A DNA stretch of 64,000 nucleotides, taken from positions 1-64,000 of the forward strand of contig JAJSAM010000014.1 of the NCBI GenBank assembly GCA_024274785.1. The letters are read 5' to 3'. A model generated the notes under the pieces. The model was not told the origin of the DNA. It searched no databases and saw nothing but the letters and a program-made list of their open reading frames with translations. Source of the stretch: Planctomycetota bacterium (GTDB taxonomy: Bacteria > Planctomycetota > JAJSAM01). Position numbers and translations under genes: made by a program. Shown here piece by piece: positions 20,634 through 64,000 of this stretch (positions are counted from its first letter, which is position 1; each line of letters starts with the position of its first letter).

Positions 20634-20745
20634 CGACTCTTCCCGCGGTTTCCTGGAAGACCGGAGGGCGAATTGCCTGCCCGTCGCATTCGATCGCCCC
20701 CGAAACCGTGTGCCCCGGTGTGTGATCCGGACTACCATCTGACCC

Positions 20746-23070
20746 ATGCGTGCATTCACCATTCTGCTGCTTCTCGTGCCGCTGATCGGTGCGGGTTGTT
20801 CCGACGGCCAGGGGAGAACGACGCCGAAGACCGGGAAGGGGCTCGATCCACTCGTGCCCGTCATTCCGCTGACGGCAACTGAGGCCGCCTACGGCTCTCC
20901 GGCCAGATCGGCGCAGACCGCGACCTTCGTCGGACGGGGAAGCTGCAAGGTCTGCCATGAGTACGAGGACCGGCTCTACCAGGGCTCCGATCACGATCTC
21001 GCCATGGACGTGGCCACCGAAAAGACCGTGCTCGGCGACTTCGACGATGCGGTGTATGAGCGCAATGGCGTGACCTCGCGGTTCTTCAGGAAGGACGGCG
21101 GCTTCTTCGTGAACACCGAGGGGCCGGACGGGAAGCTGCACGACTACGAGGTGAAGTACGTCTTCGGGGTGAGGCCGCTGCAGCAGTACCTGATTCCGTT
21201 CCCCGGTGGCCGCTACCAGACCCTGCCGCTCTGCTGGGACACGCGCGCGAAGGAGGAGGGCGGGCAGCGCTGGTTCCATATCTATCCGGATGAGTACATT
21301 CCTCCCTCCGACATCCTGCACTGGACGGGGGAGAACCAGAACTGGAACTACATGTGCGCGGAGTGCCACTCGACGAATCTCGAGAAGGGCTACGATCTCG
21401 CCACCGACACCTACGACACGACGTGGTCTGAAATCGACGTCTCCTGCGAGGCCTGCCACGGTCCGGGTTCCGATCACGTCGCCTGGGCGGAAGCGCGGAC
21501 CGGTCTCGCCGGCGGCGAAGCGGCAGCGGCTGCCGGCAGGAAGGAAATGGCCCCCTTGAAGGGAGAGGCGCTGATCCAGGCCTGCGCGCGCTGCCACTCC
21601 CGCCGCACCTCGGTCTGGCCGGAGTACGTATACGGCAAGCCGTTCGGCGACGCCCACCGCCTGGTGCTCCTGACGGACATCCACTACTTCGCGGACGGTC
21701 AGATCAAGGACGAGGTCTACGTCTACGGCTCCTTCCTGCAGAGCCGCATGTACCACGAGGGCGTCACTTGCACGGACTGCCACGATCCGCACAGCATGAA
21801 GGTCTACGCGAAGGGCAACGACCTCTGCGCGCGCTGCCACGAACCGAAGACGTACGACGTGGTGGAGCATCACTTCCATGAGCCGGGCACGGAGGGGGCG
21901 GCCTGTGTCTCGTGTCACATGCCGGAGCGCACCTACATGGTCGTGGACCCGCGCCGCGATCACAGCATCCGCATCCCGCGCCCGGACCTGACCCTCTCGA
22001 TCGGCACCCCGAACGCCTGCAGTGGCTGTCACGACGACAAGACGCCGCAGTGGTCCGAGGATGCTGTCGCGAAGTGGTATGGCGCGAAGCGTCGCCGTCC
22101 GGCGCACTTCGGCGAGACGCTGTATCTCGCGCACACCGGCGCGCCGGAGGCGACCGGAGCCCTCAGCCGGCTCGCCCTGAACCAGAGTCAGCCGGCCATC
22201 GCCCGCGCGACGGCGATCCAGGAGCTTTCGATTCGGCCGGGACCGGCCGTGCTGCGGACCATCGAAAGCGCGCTTGGCGATCCCGACCCGAACGTCCGCT
22301 CAGAGGCGGCGCTCGCTCTTCAGGACTACCCGCCGGAGGAACGCCTCCGGGCCTTCGCGCTGCTCGATGATCCGGTTCGGCTGGTGCGCGTGGCCGCTAT
22401 CGAGGCCCTCGCCGGTGTCCGGATCAAGGAACTCAGTCCCGAGCAGCGCGCCGCATTCTCGAAAGCCACCGTCGAGTACGTCCGCTCCGAACTGAGCAAC
22501 TCGGACCGAACTTACGCCCACACGAACATCGGTTCGCTTCTCGTGCGGATGGGGCAGTTCGCCGCGGCGGAGCGCTCCTACCTGACCGCGCTCGACATGA
22601 GGCCGGGAGACATCATCGCCACTGTGAACCTCGCCGACCTCTACCGGATGGTCGCGCGGGACGATGCCGGCGAGAAGGTCCTGCGGGCCGGTCTGGCGGC
22701 GAACCCCGGCGGGGCTCCGATCCATCACGCCCTGGGATTGCTGCTTGTCCGGGAGAAGCGGATGGGAGAAGCCTTCACTTTCCTCGAGCGGGCCGGCGAG
22801 TTGCAGCCCGACGTGCCTCGCTACGGCTACACGCATGCCGTCGCTCTGCACTCCGCGGGGAAGATCGAGGAGGCCATCCGCGCCCTCGAGAAGGTGCATC
22901 AACGTCACGGAGACGACGTCGATGTCATCGTAGCGCTGATTCGTTTCAACCAGGAGGTGGGCAAACTCTCTTCCGCCATCCACTACACCGGGAAGCTGAT
23001 CCGGATTCGCCCGGATGACATCAGTGCGCGCCAGTTGCTTCGACAGCTTCGCCGGGAGCAGCAGAAATGA
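20746..23070 (+). CDS. Octaheme c-type cytochrome with HEAT and TPR repeats
   Basis: A 774-residue lipoprotein (lipobox IGAGC). Eight CxxCH haem-c motifs occur in the first ~430 residues: CKVCH, CAECH, CEACH, CARCH, CTDCH, CARCH, CVSCH, CSGCH. Then come HEAT-type repeats (~455-560) and tetratricopeptide repeats (~580-770: LLVRMGQFAAAERSYLTALD, HSAGKIEEAIRALEKVH). Such multiheme-TPR fusions are periplasmic or outer-membrane electron carriers that dock partners through the solenoid; the electron acceptor is unknown. The following lipoprotein gene overlaps by 4 bases (ATGA), so the two are one operon. Confidence 0.9.
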   Translation: MRAFTILLLLVPLIGAGCSDGQGRTTPKTGKGLDPLVPVIPLTATEAAYGSPARSAQTATFVGRGSCKVCHEYEDRLYQGSDHDLAMDVATEKTVLGDFDDAVYERNGVTSRFFRKDGGFFVNTEGPDGKLHDYEVKYVFGVRPLQQYLIPFPGGRYQTLPLCWDTRAKEEGGQRWFHIYPDEYIPPSDILHWTGENQNWNYMCAECHSTNLEKGYDLATDTYDTTWSEIDVSCEACHGPGSDHVAWAEARTGLAGGEAAAAAGRKEMAPLKGEALIQACARCHSRRTSVWPEYVYGKPFGDAHRLVLLTDIHYFADGQIKDEVYVYGSFLQSRMYHEGVTCTDCHDPHSMKVYAKGNDLCARCHEPKTYDVVEHHFHEPGTEGAACVSCHMPERTYMVVDPRRDHSIRIPRPDLTLSIGTPNACSGCHDDKTPQWSEDAVAKWYGAKRRRPAHFGETLYLAHTGAPEATGALSRLALNQSQPAIARATAIQELSIRPGPAVLRTIESALGDPDPNVRSEAALALQDYPPEERLRAFALLDDPVRLVRVAAIEALAGVRIKELSPEQRAAFSKATVEYVRSELSNSDRTYAHTNIGSLLVRMGQFAAAERSYLTALDMRPGDIIATVNLADLYRMVARDDAGEKVLRAGLAANPGGAPIHHALGLLLVREKRMGEAFTFLERAGELQPDVPRYGYTHAVALHSAGKIEEAIRALEKVHQRHGDDVDVIVALIRFNQEVGKLSSAIHYTGKLIRIRPDDISARQLLRQLRREQQK

Positions 23071-53269: not shown

Positions 53270-53782
53270 CTATTCCTGCGTGTAGCTCTGGCCCGGTCGG
53301 AGGAGTTTGAAGTTCGCCAGGCCCTCCTCGCGCAGGACGCGGGTGAAGAAGCCGCAGTTCAGGCAGGAGATGATCTTGCTCGCCTCGGTACCCTGGGTGC
53401 GGGTACCGCAGAACGTTCCCGAAACCGCCCAGCAGATCCGGCCGGAACGTACTCCCGAGTTGACGCCTTCGCCGTGCCTCCCGATCGCCGCGGGGCAGGG
53501 GCCGTCGGGGCCGACATCGTCGCCGCCGGGCTCGCGGCCGCACCGGAGATACTCCCAGCAGTTGATCCTGCGTGGGGCCACCATCGCCTCGGCCCGGACG
53601 ATCATCTCCTCCCGGTGGCGTGGCCGCTGGCGCGAGTAGACCCACTTCTGGTACGTGCGGAAAGGAATGTCGAGCGCTTCGGCCATCTCACGCATCGACA
53701 TCGCGAGCGATTGACGTATCTCCTCCAGGCGTCGGATCGTACGGTCTTCGTGATCGGTCCAGAACTTCTTCGGAGCAGGCAT
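53270..53782 (-). CDS. Helix-turn-helix regulator with two-CW domain
   Basis: A 170-residue protein. The N-terminal ~60 residues form an XRE-like helix-turn-helix (IRQSLAMSMREMAEALDIPF, RTYQKWVYSRQRPRHREE). The C-terminal domain has paired Cys-Trp motifs, INCWEYLRCGREPGG and GRICWAVSGTFC, followed by ISCLNCGFF, which defines the two-CW domain. The cysteines probably bind a metal or Fe-S cluster, making it a candidate redox-sensing regulator. It is divergent from the macro-domain/redox operon that starts ~270 bases away, so it may control that operon. The gap 53783-54054 shows no other gene. Confidence 0.8.
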   Translation of the reverse strand: MPAPKKFWTDHEDRTIRRLEEIRQSLAMSMREMAEALDIPFRTYQKWVYSRQRPRHREEMIVRAEAMVAPRRINCWEYLRCGREPGGDDVGPDGPCPAAIGRHGEGVNSGVRSGRICWAVSGTFCGTRTQGTEASKIISCLNCGFFTRVLREEGLANFKLLRPGQSYTQE

Positions 53783-54054: not shown

Positions 54055-54576
54055 ATGATGCGAAACGGCATTTTTCGTCTCGTCCGAGACGATCTGACCA
54101 CCCTCGAACTCGACGCCTTCGTCTACTACGCCCGGCACGACCTCGTACTGGGATCCGGATGGGGCAACGCCATCGCCGCCAGGGGGGGCGTCGGGATTCA
54201 GGAGGGGCTCAACGACCAGGGACCCCTCGAGACCTGCGACGTGCACTTGTCCGGCGCGGGGGACCTGAAGGCGAAACACATCCTGCACGCGGTGGGCCCT
54301 CGATTCCAGGAGGTGGACGTCGAGGGCAAGCTCCGCAGGACGATGCGGAACTGTCTGACCGCCGCGAAGGAGGCGGGGCTCACGTCGCTCGGCTTCCCGA
54401 CGATGGGCGCCGGCTACTACGGTATTCCCATCGACCTCTGCGGAAAGGTCATGGTCGAGGAGATCCAGCGGCATCTCGAGGGGGACACCACGCTCACCGA
54501 AGTGGTGATCTGCGTCCAGGACAGCCGTGAGATGGACGTCTTCAAGCCCATGATCGAGGGAACGCAAGCGAGCTGA
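54055..54576 (+). CDS. Macro-domain protein
   Basis: A 173-residue cytoplasmic macro domain: RDDLTTLELDAFVYYARHDL, GWGNAIAARGGVGIQEGLND and HILHAVGPRF, TSLGFPTMGAGYYGIPIDLC. The macro fold binds ADP-ribose or its derivatives; the Asn/Asp and Gly-loop residues are present, but hydrolase activity cannot be told. ATG 54055 (or 54058) follows GTGGAGAAG. It lies 18 bases before the TmcC-like gene on the same strand, so it is part of the redox operon. Confidence 0.88.
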   Translation: MMRNGIFRLVRDDLTTLELDAFVYYARHDLVLGSGWGNAIAARGGVGIQEGLNDQGPLETCDVHLSGAGDLKAKHILHAVGPRFQEVDVEGKLRRTMRNCLTAAKEAGLTSLGFPTMGAGYYGIPIDLCGKVMVEEIQRHLEGDTTLTEVVICVQDSREMDVFKPMIEGTQAS

Positions 54577-54594
54577 AGGAGAAAGAGGACCGAC

Positions 54595-55299
54595 ATGGAC
54601 CTGCACACCATCCAGATCATTCACTACGTGGCCCTGGCCGTGATGATGGTTGTCTACGCGATTCGGATCCTGTGGTTTCTGAGCTTTCCGGCGGGCAGGG
54701 AGCGCCAGCCGCCAACCGGCACCGGGTCCGTCAACTCGAAGGCGGGTATCATCTATTCCTGGCTCAATGTCGCCAGTCCGAAGGGCATGGAGAGCTACCG
54801 CACGCACTGGTTCCTCTACCTGCAGTTCGTGGTGTTCCACCTCGGCGTCGTGGCGGCCATCACCATGAGCTTCGTGATCGCCGACTTCTCGATACTGATG
54901 AACAACGCCGCCGTGGTGCTGACGTTCCGGGTGCTCATCTGGGGCGCCTGCGCCGTGGGAGTCATGCGGATCATCCGCCGATTCACCGACAAGTACGTTC
55001 GGGCCATCAGCTCACCGGACGACTACTTCTCGGTGATCCTGCTGACGGTGTGGTTCGGCGTCGCCGCGGCGGCCGCGCCCTTCGGGGTGCCGTCATTGCA
55101 GGCCGAAGGAAGTACGCTGCTCATCATCTACTTCGCAGTCCAGACCTTCTTCCTGCTCTACGTGCCGTTCTCCAAGATCTCCCACTACCTCTACTACCCC
55201 TTCACCCGCTATTACCTCGGAAAGAGCCTGGGGCGGCGTGGAGTCTTCCCACTGAAGCACACTGCCGGTCAGCCGACGACCGCGGGAGCAGACCGATGA
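54595..55299 (+). CDS. NarI/TmcC-like haem-b membrane subunit
   Basis: A 234-residue inner-membrane protein with five helices (IQIIHYVALAVMMVVYAIRI, FLYLQFVVFHLGVVAAITMS, AAVVLTFRVLIWGACAVGVM, FSVILLTVWFGVAAAAAPFG and LLIIYFAVQTFFLLYVPFSK). Histidines in helices 1, 2 and 5 (IIHY, VFHLG, ISHY) are placed to ligate haem b, as in NarI, DsrM and TmcC. It ends SHYLYYPFTRYYLGKSLG as in TmcC-like subunits. It would move electrons between the quinone pool and the cytoplasmic Fe-S partner encoded next (ATGA overlap). Confidence 0.85.
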   Translation: MDLHTIQIIHYVALAVMMVVYAIRILWFLSFPAGRERQPPTGTGSVNSKAGIIYSWLNVASPKGMESYRTHWFLYLQFVVFHLGVVAAITMSFVIADFSILMNNAAVVLTFRVLIWGACAVGVMRIIRRFTDKYVRAISSPDDYFSVILLTVWFGVAAAAAPFGVPSLQAEGSTLLIIYFAVQTFFLLYVPFSKISHYLYYPFTRYYLGKSLGRRGVFPLKHTAGQPTTAGADR

Positions 55300-57089
55300 G
55301 CGAGCACACCGGACGGTCCCACAAGGCGCAGATGGTTCTCGAGCGTTACCAGAAGAAGCTGAGTCGACAGGTGGTCGGCTCCCTGGTCGCTTGTGTGCAC
55401 TGTGGCAACTGCACCGATAGCTGCCACTACGTATTGGCCAATCCGGGGGATCCCACCTACGCCCCGGCCTACAAGGCGGACCGGATCCGCAAGCTCTTCA
55501 AGAAGCACTTCGACTGGACCGGCAAGGTCTTTCCCTGGTGGGTCAAGGCCGGCGACGTCATGACCGACGAGGACCTGGAGGAGTTGAAGGATACGGTGTT
55601 CGGCAAGTGCACCAACTGCCGCCGCTGTACTTTCAACTGCCCGATGGGCGTCGACCTCGCCACCTTCAACCGCATGGCGCGCTGCCTGCTCGTCTCCGTC
55701 GGCATCATGCCCGAGGGCGTGGCCGTGGTCAGCAAGGATCAGTGGGAGATCGGGAACCAGATGGGAGTCCTGAAGGAGGACTACCTCGACACCCTCGACT
55801 GGATGTCGGAAGAGGTTTCCGAGGAACTGGACGACCCCGCGGCGGTCATTCCCGTCGATAAGATGGACGCGGAGATCGTCTACACCATCAACCCCCGGGA
55901 GGTGAAGTACGACCCCCGGACCATCGCCGACGCGTTGAAGATCTTCCACGCCGCGGGCGAAAACTGGACTATGCCGAGCGAAGGCTGGGACATGACCAAC
56001 TTCGGCCTGTTCTCCGGTGACGACGACCTCGGCGGGGTGGTGGCGCGGCGCGTCTACGACAAGGTCATCGATCTGCGCGGCAAGAAGCTCGTGATCTCCG
56101 AATGCGGGCACGGCTATCGCTCCACCCGCTGTGAAGGTCCCAACTGGGCGAAGTTCGACATCCCGTTCGAGATGGAAAGCTCCGTCGACACCATGCTGCG
56201 GTACATCAGGGAAGGCCGCATCAAGGTGGACAAGACGAAGAACCCCGACAAGGTCACCTTCCACGACTCCTGCAACAACGCGCGAAGCTGTGGTCTGACC
56301 GAGCCGCCCCGTGAACTCCTGGAGCTCGTCTGCATGGATTTTCAGGAGATGTACCCCAACCGCGAGGACAACTACTGCTGCACCGGCGGCGGTGGGGCGA
56401 TGAGCATGTCGGAGTACACCCCGAGGCGGCTCAAGAGTGCGAAGATCAAGGCCGACCAGTTGAAAGCGACCGGAGCGAAGACGGTGGTGACCTCGTGCCA
56501 CAACTGCGTCGATGGTCTGGCCGACTGCATCCGGCACTACAAGCTCGGCATGGGCGTGACGCAGCTCGTGACGCTCGTGGCGAACGCGCTGGTGTGGGAC
56601 GAGATGCCCGCCGCGCCGGGGAAGCCGGAGATTCCCGAGGGAGTCCCGGCGGAGATGGAGCCGGAGGTGGCGCTGGATCCGGATCCGGAGGAAGCCTCCG
56701 CTTCGGAGGAACCGCCCCTGGCGGGCAAGCGGATCGTGGTGGCCGACGACGACCCGGACCAGGTGATCTACCTGAAATCGGTGCTTTCGGATGCCGGCGC
56801 CGAGATCATCGAAGCAGCCGACGGCGACGAGACTCTCGAGGCATGCCGGAAGGAGTTGCCGGACATGCTGACGCTCGACCTCGAGATGCCGGGTACGCCC
56901 ACGAAAGATGTGTTTGCGAGGCTACGTGACGAACTTCCGGAACTGAGGATCTGCATCGTCACCGGACGCCCTGAACTGCGCGCGCTGATCTACGATCAGG
57001 ACCTCAGGCGCCCCGAGGGCTATCTCGACAAGCCGATCACGGAAGAATCGCTGCTGCGAAACGTGAGGAAGGTCCTCGAGACTTCCTGA
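55296..57089 (+). CDS. HdrD/TmcB-like Fe-S oxidoreductase fused to a receiver domain
   Basis: A 597-residue cytoplasmic protein. Residues ~25-150 hold two [4Fe-4S] motifs (CVHCGNCTDSCH and CTNCRRCTFNCP). Residues ~270-440 hold two CCG-type domains of heterodisulfide-reductase proteins (HDSCNNARSCG, NYCCTGGGGAM, VTSCHNCVDGL), which can bind a non-cubane cluster. After an acidic-Pro linker, residues ~475-597 are a response-regulator receiver: VVADDDPDQV (acid pair), LTLDLEMPG (phospho-Asp), VTGRPEL (Thr) and YLDKP (Lys). The REC fusion is not part of typical HdrD or TmcB. It overlaps the membrane subunit gene and precedes a histidine kinase gene. Confidence 0.9.
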   Translation: MSEHTGRSHKAQMVLERYQKKLSRQVVGSLVACVHCGNCTDSCHYVLANPGDPTYAPAYKADRIRKLFKKHFDWTGKVFPWWVKAGDVMTDEDLEELKDTVFGKCTNCRRCTFNCPMGVDLATFNRMARCLLVSVGIMPEGVAVVSKDQWEIGNQMGVLKEDYLDTLDWMSEEVSEELDDPAAVIPVDKMDAEIVYTINPREVKYDPRTIADALKIFHAAGENWTMPSEGWDMTNFGLFSGDDDLGGVVARRVYDKVIDLRGKKLVISECGHGYRSTRCEGPNWAKFDIPFEMESSVDTMLRYIREGRIKVDKTKNPDKVTFHDSCNNARSCGLTEPPRELLELVCMDFQEMYPNREDNYCCTGGGGAMSMSEYTPRRLKSAKIKADQLKATGAKTVVTSCHNCVDGLADCIRHYKLGMGVTQLVTLVANALVWDEMPAAPGKPEIPEGVPAEMEPEVALDPDPEEASASEEPPLAGKRIVVADDDPDQVIYLKSVLSDAGAEIIEAADGDETLEACRKELPDMLTLDLEMPGTPTKDVFARLRDELPELRICIVTGRPELRALIYDQDLRRPEGYLDKPITEESLLRNVRKVLETS

Positions 57090-57113
57090 GCAAGAGCGAA
57101 ACGGAGGCGCGGG

Positions 57114-58574
57114 ATGGGCAAGCCATACCAGCAGTACTTCAATGCGCTGCCCTGCTATCTGACCGTGCAGGATCGGGACTTCCGGATCATCGACGCCAAC
57201 GATCGCTTTCGTGGCGACTTCGGGGATTGGGAAGGACGGTTATGCTACCAGGTCTACAAGCACCGATCCGAGAAGTGCGAGGTCTGCCCGGTGGAGCGGG
57301 TCTTTCACGACGGCCAGAGCCACCGCAGCGAGGAACTGGTGCGGGCCCGGGACGGCCGGGAAGTCTGCGTCCTGGTGGATGCCACGCCGATCCGGGGGGA
57401 GGACGGCCGGATCGAGTCCGTCATCGAGATGTCCACGGACGTCACTCATATCAAGAGGCTCTCGGACCAGCTGAAGCGAAGCCAGAACCGCCTGCGGCTC
57501 CTGTTCGACGAGGTCCCCTGCTACATATCGATTCAGGATCGGGAGCTCAACATCGTCGAGGCCAACCGGCTGAGCCAGGAGACCTTCGGCAGTTGCCTCG
57601 GGCGCAAGTGCTACGAGGCCTACCGCAAGCGCACGGAGGAGTGTGTTCCCTGTGCGGTGCAGCAGACCTTCGAGGATGGCCGAACCCACAGCCACGAGGA
57701 AGTCCTCACCGATCTCGAGGGGCAGTCACGCCACGTGCTCGTGACGACCTCCGCCATCCGCTCCCCGGACGGTGACATCGACGGTGTGATGGAGATGGCC
57801 GCGGATATCACCACTCTGCGGGAGTTGCAGTCGCAGCTTTCCTCGCTCGGTATGCTCGTCGGTTCCATTTCGCACGGGCTGAAGGGTCTCCTGAACGGGC
57901 TGGCGGGAGGGATGTACCTGGTGAACTCCGGGCTCAGGAAGGAGGACCGGCCGCGGATGCTGAAGGGCTGGGAGATGGTCAAGCGCAACGTCGCCCAGGT
58001 GAAGAGCATGGTCAGTGACATCCTCTACTACGCGAAGGACCGTGAAGTGCTCCGCGAGCCACTGAGTCCCACGGGCGCGGCGCGCGACGCCTGCGACCTC
58101 GTGCAGTCGAGGGCCGCCGACCTCGAGATCGAACTGGTCCGGGAGTTCGATGAGGATGTCGGGAAGCTCGATGCCGACCCGCAGGCGCTCCGGTCCCTCC
58201 TCGTCAACCTGATCGAGAACTCCCTCGATGCCTGCCGCCTGGACCGGAAGAAGCCATCTCACCGGGTGACTGTCGAGGTGAGGGGCACTGGCCGTTCGAT
58301 CCTGTTTTCGATCTCGGACAACGGAATCGGCATGGACGAGGAGACGAGGGAGAAGGCGTTCAGTCTCTTCTTCTCGAGCAAAGGACTTTCCGGAACCGGG
58401 CTCGGATTGTTCATCGCCAACAAGATCGTTCGCGCCCACGACGGGCGAATCGAGATGACGTCAGAGCCCGGAGTCGGCACACAGTTCCACGTCAGGCTTC
58501 CGCGTACCGCTCCGGAAGGAGCGAATGCGGATGCGGATACAATGAGTGCGAAGAGTTCCCAACCGAGGAGCTGA
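57114..58574 (+). CDS. PAS-PAS histidine kinase with cysteine-rich sensor domains
   Basis: A 486-residue cytoplasmic kinase (no membrane helix). Two tandem PAS domains (~residues 8-115 and 125-235) each end with a Cys motif, CYQVYKHRSEKCEVCP and CYEAYRKRTEECVPC, which may bind a metal or sense redox state. The dimerisation helix has the phosphorylated His in VGSISHGLKGLLNG, and the HATPase has LIENSLDACRLD, SDNGIGMDEETRE and GTGLGLFI. It lacks its own DNA-binding output. Possible phosphorylation targets are the receiver fused to the Fe-S protein and the lone receiver encoded 2 bases downstream. Confidence 0.9.
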   Translation: MGKPYQQYFNALPCYLTVQDRDFRIIDANDRFRGDFGDWEGRLCYQVYKHRSEKCEVCPVERVFHDGQSHRSEELVRARDGREVCVLVDATPIRGEDGRIESVIEMSTDVTHIKRLSDQLKRSQNRLRLLFDEVPCYISIQDRELNIVEANRLSQETFGSCLGRKCYEAYRKRTEECVPCAVQQTFEDGRTHSHEEVLTDLEGQSRHVLVTTSAIRSPDGDIDGVMEMAADITTLRELQSQLSSLGMLVGSISHGLKGLLNGLAGGMYLVNSGLRKEDRPRMLKGWEMVKRNVAQVKSMVSDILYYAKDREVLREPLSPTGAARDACDLVQSRAADLEIELVREFDEDVGKLDADPQALRSLLVNLIENSLDACRLDRKKPSHRVTVEVRGTGRSILFSISDNGIGMDEETREKAFSLFFSSKGLSGTGLGLFIANKIVRAHDGRIEMTSEPGVGTQFHVRLPRTAPEGANADADTMSAKSSQPRS

Positions 58575-58576
58575 TC

Positions 58577-58960
58577 ATGGCCGAAGTGGCGAAGAACATC
58601 CTGGTAGTGGACGACGTTCCCGATGAGCGCGGCTACCTGGTGACCGTGCTGGCTGACGCCGGCTATACCGTGGCGGAGGCCGCGGACGGTGAGGAGGCGC
58701 TCGAACACGTCGCGACGGCGCGTCCGGACCTCATCACCCTCGACATCACGATGCCCGAGAAGTCCGGCGTCTCCGTCTACCGGAGTCTGAAGAGCGGCGC
58801 CGACACGAAAGACATCCCGATCATCGTGGTGACCGGCGTCTCCGACGACTTCAGGGAGTTCATCTCCTCACGTCGCCAGGTGCCGCCTCCGGACGGTTAC
58901 CTGGGCAAGCCGGTGGACCACGAGGAACTTCTGAAGACGGTGGAGGGCCTGCTGCCATAG
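58577..58960 (+). CDS. Single-domain response regulator
   Basis: A 127-residue receiver without output domain: ILVVDDVPDERGYLVTVLAD, LITLDITMPEKSG (phospho-Asp), VVTGVSDDF and GYLGKPVD (Lys). It is closely similar in motif layout to the receiver fused to the Fe-S protein (both have PEGYLDKP or PDGYLGKP near the end). It may shuttle phosphate or act as a phosphate sink. It is the last gene of the redox operon. Confidence 0.92.
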   Translation: MAEVAKNILVVDDVPDERGYLVTVLADAGYTVAEAADGEEALEHVATARPDLITLDITMPEKSGVSVYRSLKSGADTKDIPIIVVTGVSDDFREFISSRRQVPPPDGYLGKPVDHEELLKTVEGLLP

Positions 58961-61619: not shown

Positions 61620-64000
61620 ATGCGTATCGCCGCGGCGCTGCTCGTCCTCGTGCTCCTCTCTTCTTCCGCTTTGGCGGCGCCCCCGAACGTGGTCCGCTCC
61701 GAACCGGAAAACGGCACCATCGACGTGCCCGTGGATATCGGCATGCTTCGAATCCACTTCGACCAGGACATGGCCACCGGCTCCTGGACGATCTGGAAGT
61801 CGGAGCGAGGGGAACTCCCGCCCCTGAAGAGGATCTCCGACACTCCGTTCCGTGACGCTCGCACCTTCGAGCTTCCGATGGAGACGCTCGAACCGGGCAA
61901 GACCTACGCCATCCGGCTGAACAACACCGCGCGCGGCAAGCTCGGCTTCCGCTCCGCGGCGGGAGAGCCGCTTCCCGACACCGTGATCGCGTTCCGGACC
62001 GCGGACTCGGCGGCGCCAGCCCCGCAGGAGCCCGACAAGCCGGCGATTCCCGCGAAACCCGCAAAGCCCGGAAAGCCCGGAAAGCCCGGAAAGCCCGGAA
62101 AGCCCGGAAAGCCCGGAAAGATGAACCTGGGCCCGGTCCGCACCGATCCCGACCGGCTGTGGACGGTGCTGGTCTACATGGCTGCTGACAACGACGTGGA
62201 GCGCTTCGCCCCCGAGGCGCTGAATGACATCGAGGCCCGCTTCCCGGACCGGGGGGTGGAGATCATCGTGCTCTTCGACCGCGCGAAGGAGTATGACCGT
62301 TCGCACGGGGACTGGCACGACACCCGCGTCTACCGGGTCAAGCGGGGAAACCGCGATGACGCCCTGGAGTCGGAGCAGATTGCCGGTCTCGGCGAGCTCA
62401 ACATGGGCTCCGCCGACACTCTCGCCGAGTTCATCGCCGCCGGCCTCCGGACGTTCCCGGCGCCTCGCACCTGTCTCCTGATGTGGGATCACGGCATGGG
62501 CTGGGGAGGCAATGCGGTGGATGTGGATGCGCCGGGGGCGAAGAAGAGCCCGGACGAACTGACCCTCCTCGAACTGCGGGATGGTATGGCCCGGGGGCTC
62601 CAGGGCGGGGGGCGCGAGAAGCTCGACATCGTGCTCTTTCACATGTGCCTGATGGCCCAGGTGGAGATCGCGACGGAGATGATGTCGGTGGCTGACTACA
62701 TGGTCGCCTCGGAAGCGATGATCCCCTGCGCGATCGTGCCCTACGGCAATCTGTTGGCGAGCCTGGCCACGCAGACCGACCCTCGCGCCGCCGCCGCGGG
62801 GATGGTGGAGATCTACCGGCAGGCCTATCTGGCGAAGAAGGACGAGGGCTCGACTTCCTCGGCGATCGACCTCGCGAGGCTCCCCGGGTTGCTCGATGCC
62901 ATCGACGCTCTCGCCGGAAGGCTCGTCGGCGCGGCCGATCGCGATTGGCCGACACTCACCCGTTCGCTGTTCTTCTCCGAGAACTACATGGGGCGGACCG
63001 ACTACCGGATGGGGAAGAACGCCACCGCCAGCATCGACCTGCTCGACGCGGTCCGGAGAATGCGCGCCAACTCGAAGGACTTTCCGGCGGAGCCGGAGTA
63101 CCAGCGGCTGGAGCAGGAGTTCAGGGCATGCGTGCTCGACAATTATACCGGGGAGCGATGGAAGCTCAGCCGCGGGCTCGCGATCTACGGTCCCATTCGC
63201 GCCGAGAACCTGGGCGCGGCCTACCGGCAGACCACCTTCGGAAAACGAGGCGGCTGGCTCGGCCTCCTCGACCGCGTACATGCCGCCCAGAAGAGGCAGA
63301 TGTCTCCCCCGAAGGTGAAGGACATCCGGTTGCTCGACGCTGCCGGACGCCCCACGGAAACCGTGACGGGACTCTCCGGGACCCAGGTGCGGTTCACCGT
63401 CGAAGGGCGCAACATCCTGTGGGTGCTGGCCAACCAGGTGAGGCCCATCCGGGAGCCGAAGGGCATGGCGGTGATGTTCCGGACGTTCATTGTCGATGAC
63501 CGCTACGAGAAGCGCAAGGCGGACATGGCGACCGAACTCATCGACCTGGCGATGCCGATCTACGTGGACGGCGACAACCCGATCGCCAAGGAAGCGGGGG
63601 GGCTCGGCTTCAGGGTCACCGACGGAAAGAAACTCTACGAAGCCACGATCGACTACTCGGATCCCTCCCAGTTGCGCCTTCTCCGGGTGCCGGCCATCTA
63701 TCGCCACCCCGAGGATGGTGAGTTCCGGTGCGACATCATGTTCGATGTCAACTGGTCCCGGGCGGTCTTCGTCATCGGCTACATTCCGATGGCCGACGGT
63801 CGCTTCATGCCGAAGCAGTTCATTCCCAAGCCCGACGCGGAGCTCACCCTGCTCTACCAGGTGTTTACCGAGGACAACAAGGTGACGTTCGTGCCGACCG
63901 GCAAGGTGACGTGGAAGGACGGGCTGATGATCATTCCCGTTTTCGACGATCCCGGTCGCTACGGGTTGATGATCGAGGTTGAGTCCATCGAGGGCTCCGG
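61620..64000 (+). CDS. Clostripain-family (C11) protease with Ig-like domain, partial at 3' end
   Basis: At least 793 residues, continuing past the window edge with no stop. Signal peptide MRIAAALLVLVLLSSSALA, then a Big_5/SbsA-like Ig domain (VVRSEPENGTIDVPVDIGML and LEPGKTYAIRLNN), then a repetitive linker of Lys-Pro-Gly units (KPGKPGKPGKPGKPGK). The C11 peptidase domain begins WTVLVYMAADNDVERFAPEA; the catalytic His is in LMWDHGMGWGG and Cys in LFHMCLMAQVEIATEM. It cleaves after Arg or Lys in known members. ATG 61620 has GGGGAG upstream. A long frame on the opposite strand is a shadow. Confidence 0.85.
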   Translation, partial: MRIAAALLVLVLLSSSALAAPPNVVRSEPENGTIDVPVDIGMLRIHFDQDMATGSWTIWKSERGELPPLKRISDTPFRDARTFELPMETLEPGKTYAIRLNNTARGKLGFRSAAGEPLPDTVIAFRTADSAAPAPQEPDKPAIPAKPAKPGKPGKPGKPGKPGKPGKMNLGPVRTDPDRLWTVLVYMAADNDVERFAPEALNDIEARFPDRGVEIIVLFDRAKEYDRSHGDWHDTRVYRVKRGNRDDALESEQIAGLGELNMGSADTLAEFIAAGLRTFPAPRTCLLMWDHGMGWGGNAVDVDAPGAKKSPDELTLLELRDGMARGLQGGGREKLDIVLFHMCLMAQVEIATEMMSVADYMVASEAMIPCAIVPYGNLLASLATQTDPRAAAAGMVEIYRQAYLAKKDEGSTSSAIDLARLPGLLDAIDALAGRLVGAADRDWPTLTRSLFFSENYMGRTDYRMGKNATASIDLLDAVRRMRANSKDFPAEPEYQRLEQEFRACVLDNYTGERWKLSRGLAIYGPIRAENLGAAYRQTTFGKRGGWLGLLDRVHAAQKRQMSPPKVKDIRLLDAAGRPTETVTGLSGTQVRFTVEGRNILWVLANQVRPIREPKGMAVMFRTFIVDDRYEKRKADMATELIDLAMPIYVDGDNPIAKEAGGLGFRVTDGKKLYEATIDYSDPSQLRLLRVPAIYRHPEDGEFRCDIMFDVNWSRAVFVIGYIPMADGRFMPKQFIPKPDAELTLLYQVFTEDNKVTFVPTGKVTWKDGLMIIPVFDDPGRYGLMIEVESIEGS

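Follow-up and report, generated by a model that had tools for sequence, protein, structure and literature searches.

A receiver domain fused to the Fe-S subunit of a DsrMK/Hmc/Tmc-like redox cassette found in many bacterial phyla

Why should the iron-sulfur (Fe-S) subunit of a membrane redox complex carry a receiver domain of its own, next to a histidine kinase? The question is raised by an operon at 54055-58960 of the first 64 000 nt of contig JAJSAM010000014.1 from a Planctomycetota bacterium (assembly GCA_024274785.1); this whole stretch is called the window below. Five co-directional genes, overlapping their neighbours by 4 bp or sitting 2-24 bp apart, encode in this order a macro-domain protein, a NarI/HmcE-like haem-b subunit, an Fe-S protein fused to a receiver, a PAS-PAS kinase and a lone receiver. 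A first-pass annotation had proposed this order; profiles from Pfam and NCBIfam confirmed the open reading frames (ORFs) and the domains, the membrane subunit being seen by NCBIfam only, plus a fold match. The cassette is widely distributed, and it comes with a testable regulatory idea. Comparison of sequences suggests a quinone-linked oxidoreductase of DsrC type (or acting on a related thiol) in which phosphorylation of the Fe-S subunit itself would serve as the gate, a proposal that we judge to be evenly balanced between right and wrong.

The Fe-S protein and its fused receiver

The gene for the fused protein (55296..57089; this and all other cassette genes are on the forward strand) is one unbroken frame of 597 aa, in which domain matches and an AlphaFold2 (AF2) model delimit an HmcF/TmcB/DsrK-like Fe-S subunit and a C-terminal receiver. 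The Fe-S subunit begins with a dicluster 4Fe-4S ferredoxin part (55383..55649; Fer4_8, 5.7e-10), whose cysteines C33, C36, C39, C43, C105, C108, C111 and C115 are unchanged across 55 sequences. Next comes a two-lobed CCG region (55875..56600; CCG, 1.8e-11), with a full Cys set in its second lobe. Two CCG domains had been claimed here: Pfam detects one, at residues 319-403, and the first is degenerate, with the ECGHG stretch alone left; the predicted fold of the region, however, is close to that of two-CCG proteins (Foldseek on the predicted model: LutA, TM-score 0.73; HdrB, 0.64).

In the AF2 model (mean predicted local distance difference test, pLDDT, of 80) a complete receiver fold sits on a low-confidence linker (56607..56723), residues 438-469 mostly having pLDDT < 50; linker length in relatives is 4-55 aa, with a median of 19. 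The receiver itself (56724..57086; Response_reg, 9.7e-14; phospho-acceptor Asp528 at 56877-56879) has DVU0259_DivK as its best NCBIfam receiver family and carries the full residue set of phospho-accepting receivers, i.e. the acidic pair, Asp, Thr/Ser and Lys. Among the fused receivers compared, the phospho-Asp, the Lys and the Thr/Ser were each present in 84/84, and the acidic pair was kept in essentially all.

One could suppose that the receiver is a scaffold, or a domain for stability or localization (with the kinase or the macro protein as its binding partner, for instance), with no phosphorylation switch. The low-confidence, length-variable linker would suit such a role, as would the probable loss of the receiver in two lineages (L033 and L110, see below); yet a scaffold needs none of the phosphorylation residues that essentially all 84 receivers keep, and we think this explanation quite improbable.

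Distribution and descent of the cassette

A scan of GTDB species genomes with the Fe-S/receiver protein gave 465 relatives, of which the best 80 loci were kept; as the query included the receiver, the ranking is biased to fused forms. The five-gene cassette, in the same order, recurs in named genomes from a dozen phyla or more. The hosts belong to Planctomycetota, Zixibacteria, Gemmatimonadota, Acidobacteriota, Calditrichota, Bacteroidota (Kapaibacterium, Ignavibacteria), Electryonea/Tariuqbacter, Myxococcota, Syntrophaceae and other Thermodesulfobacteriota, LCP-89, Poribacteria, Abyssobacteria, Elusimicrobia and Riflebacteria; identity of the Fe-S part across cassettes is mostly 70-88%. All five genes were present in the same order and strand at 56 of the 80 loci (several incomplete ones reach contig ends), and at nearly all 80 the Fe-S protein is fused to a receiver. 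With gene order conserved across phyla, the arrangement is not due to chance.

To offset the bias of a receiver-containing query, searches in Acidobacteriota and Zixibacteria used just the Fe-S part; 39 of the 41 matches had frames of at least 542 aa, a length sufficient for the fusion. These matches bear also on the thought that the fusion is an artefact of assembly or gene calling, a stop missing from a metagenome bin. The window's assembly is indeed incomplete (multi-contig, 90% complete); however, 84 fused frames across many phyla, along with the long-frame matches just given, rule the artefact out, and we allow it practically no chance.

A tree built from 76 sequences places the fused proteins, together with unfused ones nested among them, in one clade (starred), with HmcF and Tmc/Hmc-like proteins outside it. 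The neighbour clade, L137-L140 from Desulfobacterota, holds the nearest of those unfused relatives that have receiver and kinase genes side by side; they are ~45% identical and have the gene order TPR-NarI-FeS-REC-HK (REC, receiver; HK, histidine kinase). Unlike in the cassette, the receiver is a separate gene, immediately flanked by the Fe-S gene and the kinase gene, and no macro gene was found in the short stretch covered. By the gene-fusion argument, this position suggests that receiver and Fe-S protein act together. The first-pass annotation had named a receiver split off in relatives as a sign against its idea. In part such a split does occur, as an adjacent gene in these distant relatives, and the receiver is missing from two nested lineages.

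The two nested lineages are L110, the window's nearest relative (88% identity), and L033; the simplest reading is that both probably lost the receiver. For a further unfused group, L130-L136, either loss or a relic state is possible. This tree, on which the fused state takes four changes, was made quickly and has long outgroup branches, so that its deeper branching order is provisional.

The L130-L136 loci (Desulfobacterota, 64% identity) are receiver-free NarI-FeS pairs. At L130 the pair is followed by genes for a UspA-like protein, a HEAT-repeat protein and a receiver; UspA is found near tmc as well. Counts from the Desulfobacterota search that had the full fusion as query are lower bounds, as only three candidates per genome were scored and receivers swamped the search. 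In L118 the Fe-S gene is interrupted by an in-frame TAG (L118:10322-10324) between cluster ligands. Selenocysteine was ruled out, the codon being TAG at a non-Cys position, and the stop is probably a sequencing or assembly error of a metagenome-assembled genome (MAG).

Relation to known complexes and to sulfite reductase

To which complex, then, does the fused subunit belong? A Tmc-like complex had been suggested, and membership in Tmc is not supported. The Fe-S subunit scores 326.5 bits with the NCBIfam model HmcF (cut-off 750), 307.6 with TmcB (735) and 242 with DsrK (400), and relatives score alike (TmcB, 308-321 bits in five relatives; DsrK, 231-248). Proteins that do pass the HmcF cut-off were seen in 16/247 Desulfobacterota genomes. 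The membrane subunit (54595..55299) matches HmcE (4.4e-10) and TmcC (2e-8), both far under cut-off (TmcC, 34 bits versus 240), and has no Pfam match; its model (AF2, predicted TM-score 0.78) matched only NarI chains among solved structures (Foldseek, E ~1e-3). These curated cut-offs and the tree position exclude Tmc or Hmc membership, and a subunit so far under the HmcF, TmcB and DsrK cut-offs belongs to a distinct, unnamed group and not to a Tmc complex.

The cassette shares with Tmc (TmcABCD of Desulfovibrio) TmcB-like and TmcC-like subunits and, as nearest receiver family, the DVU0259 type; in contrast to Tmc, its receiver is fused and it has no TmcA or multihaem neighbour. The lack of TmcA, noted at first pass, was borne out: the nearest ORF with at least three CxxCH motifs, the sole one in the window, lies 31 kb away (20743-23067), and a multihaem gene of this kind occurs within 4 kb at just 2 of 80 related cassettes. 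The distant ORF encodes 775 aa with eight CxxCH motifs as well as HEAT and TPR repeats (cytochrome c7/c554-like). TmcA-free Tmc operons have been reported in partners of methane oxidisers (PMC10553843).

Hmc of Desulfovibrio vulgaris, with rrf1 and rrf2, provides the top-scoring curated families for the cassette, HmcE and HmcF, and Rrf2-type regulators precede many cassettes too. Rrf1 we take to be a receiver protein; if so, the cassette resembles HmcF joined to Rrf1. Unlike Hmc, the cassette has a covalent receiver and a co-encoded kinase, and gene content and a haem scan found no HmcA-D (16-haem cytochrome, NrfD-like subunit) in the operon. Expression of hmc is described as regulated by the adjoining rrf1 and rrf2 genes (PMC10924467).

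DsrMK(JOP) has in common with the cassette a NarI-type haem-b subunit paired with a CCG Fe-S subunit, association with dsr genes, and DsrC as a likely thiol partner. It differs in that the cassette lacks JOP subunits and adds receiver, kinase and macro genes, and in that cassette hosts have other CCG Fe-S proteins too. Within 10 kb, ~25 loci have a further CCG Fe-S gene (~30% identity with the cassette's own protein) and ~22 a further NarI gene (PF02665); L044, L059, L072, L083 and L085 are among the loci with such extra genes. In the open-access papers searched, we found no description of the cassette or of the fusion, in studied tmc clusters included.

Co-occurrence with dsr genes had been suggested as a check, and it was found: dsrA is present in 47/54 cassette genomes, including the window's own (G000:C23), and in 3/59 genomes sampled around the window. 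The enrichment holds within phyla, with dsrA in 25/31 cassette genomes versus 21/102 others for Zixibacteria (Fisher test, 2e-9) and in 7/10 versus 13/189 for Acidobacteriota (3.5e-6). A dsrC-like gene adjoins the cassette at nine loci (L033, L044, L063, L085, L086, L102, L103, L106 and L108), dsrAB lies within 10 kb at seven, and at L033 the cassette adjoins dsrC-dsrKPOJM. The oxidative marker dsrE was over its cut-off in 0/54 cassette genomes; DsrD, the reductive marker, was present in only 8/54, so that the reductive direction is likelier, not settled.

Is DsrC the partner? Published work agrees with such a role in general: Tmc and DsrMKJOP are predicted to reduce DsrC (PMC10553843), and the cytoplasmic partner of Hmc and Tmc has been called unknown, with DsrC or ferredoxin proposed (PMC4215793). 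The cassette's partner could be a ferredoxin or another thiol/disulfide protein, the dsr link reflecting anaerobic sulfur-metabolising hosts in general. This would agree with the majority of cassettes, which have no dsrC nearby, and with the cassette genomes in which dsrA is missing; it fits poorly with the dsrA enrichment inside two phyla and with dsrC-like genes being repeatedly the immediate neighbour. We rate a partner other than DsrC as unlikely, and DsrC or a paralogue of it as the best candidate.

Kinase, receivers and upstream genes

The kinase (57114..58574; PAS_4, 6e-31 in two stretches; HATPase_c, 2.5e-24) has, as first annotated, a Cys motif in each PAS domain: cysteines 44/55/58 in PAS1 and 166/177/180 in PAS2, all six in 70/70 sequences. 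The phospho-His (His254), the N box (N369) and the G box (D402 and G404) are likewise present in 70/70. The lone receiver (58577..58960; Response_reg, 9.3e-22; DVU0259_DivK, 1.3e-26), which is of the DVU0259 type, adjoins the kinase at most loci and keeps Asp56 in 61/61.

Which receiver does the kinase serve? Once distances were corrected for those of the Fe-S part, divergence of the kinase DHp domain followed that of the fused receiver (rank partial r 0.46) above that of the lone receiver (0.12) and the membrane subunit (0.05). Two loci, L118 and L119, diverge most: there the kinase and the fused receiver are both out of the ordinary in their divergence and the Fe-S part is not; without these loci the values were 0.33 (fused) versus 0.09 (lone), with the fused receiver ahead in 200/200 subsamples. 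Co-divergence of the kinase with the fused receiver is suggestive of pairing, not proof, because related sequences are not independent.

We propose that the haem-b membrane subunit and the cytoplasmic CCG Fe-S subunit would form a two-subunit membrane complex of the DsrMK/TmcBC/HmcEF type, in bacteria having dissimilatory sulfite reductase, and would pass electrons, probably, between menaquinol and a cytoplasmic thiol/disulfide carrier. The cytoplasmic kinase may sense redox state or a ligand via its three-cysteine motif per PAS domain, autophosphorylate on His254 and then phosphorylate the receiver tethered to the Fe-S subunit; the phosphorylated receiver could alter the flow of electrons or the access of partners. 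As for the lone receiver, it might compete as an acceptor or connect to a second output.

Information could also run the other way: the complex would be a sensor, with the redox state of its Fe-S and haem-b centres read via the attached receiver, which modulates the kinase, the output being the lone receiver and gene expression. A lone receiver beside the kinase at most loci, and varied dedicated regulators directly upstream (Rrf2, a Cys-rich HTH_17 protein, a sigma-54 activator), would suit this arrangement. However, the kinase with its own invariant six-cysteine PAS pair needs no further redox input, its divergence tracks the fused receiver above the lone one, and the fused receiver keeps every residue for phosphorylation. 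We therefore give a sensory role a minor share of our belief.

Several observations weigh against gating of a DsrC-type oxidoreductase by phosphorylation. Besides the low count of DsrD, a dsrA match is missing from 7/54 cassette genomes; MAG incompleteness is a possible cause, and G027 (95% complete) and G019 (93%) are among the seven. Relatedness confounds the co-divergence test, which is weaker once outliers are removed. In the membrane subunit, His82 and His197 are unchanged in 85/85, and these two invariant His, versus four in NarI, leave room for one bis-His haem b, fewer than in NarI. The unfused forms L033 and L110 have neither receiver nor kinase, so a receiver is not indispensable for the redox complex to work.

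Should gating by phosphorylation hold, it would bear on how sulfate and sulfite reducers control the flow of electrons into sulfite reduction, and on the cytoplasmic reaction partners of Hmc/Tmc/DsrMK-type complexes. With receiver and complex linked covalently and the kinase in the same operon, direct control by phosphorylation is testable with a few purified proteins. For many uncultured phyla that bear dsr genes, the dsrA link supplies a marker as well as a candidate route for electrons. The idea offers, moreover, an explanation for the receiver genes whose presence next to hmc and tmc has long been known. We advance somewhat more tentatively the wider view that the cassette encodes a widespread unnamed respiratory complex, one whose electron-transfer protein, acting in dissimilatory sulfur metabolism, would be gated directly by two-component phosphorylation and, by extension, that in model sulfate reducers receivers free of DNA-binding domains beside hmc and tmc may control the complexes and not transcription.

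The macro gene (54055..54576; PF01661, 1.1e-18) heads the cassette at 78/80 loci, the remaining two starting inside NarI at a contig end. A tie to ADP-ribose had been drawn from it. The catalytic Asn of the VNAAN type that marks MacroD-type ADP-ribose hydrolases is missing in 79/79 macro domains, which makes a link with ADP-ribose hydrolysis doubtful; nearly all have V[F/Y]YA, and the glycine loops are kept.

Upstream of the macro gene, on the reverse strand, the divergent regulator expected at 53270..53782 is present, with a helix-turn-helix (HTH) match below cut-off (HTH_3, 5.7e-4) and a Cys-rich, two-CW-like C-terminus. In L040 and L109 a 56-58% identical relative takes up a like divergent position upstream of the cassette, and we consider this gene a candidate regulator of the operon. 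Across L040-L119 the regulator directly upstream of the macro gene differs in type by lineage: Rrf2, an HTH_17 protein with a Cys-rich region and a degenerate receiver, sigma-54 activators, or MerR.

Also on the upstream side of the operon is a 115-nt inverted pair (50438-50552 and 53074-53188), 89% complementary and 2.5 kb apart, possibly a dispersed repeat of the window's genome. Elsewhere in the window, at 62049-62120, the 9-bp unit CCCGGAAAG is repeated in tandem in eight copies.

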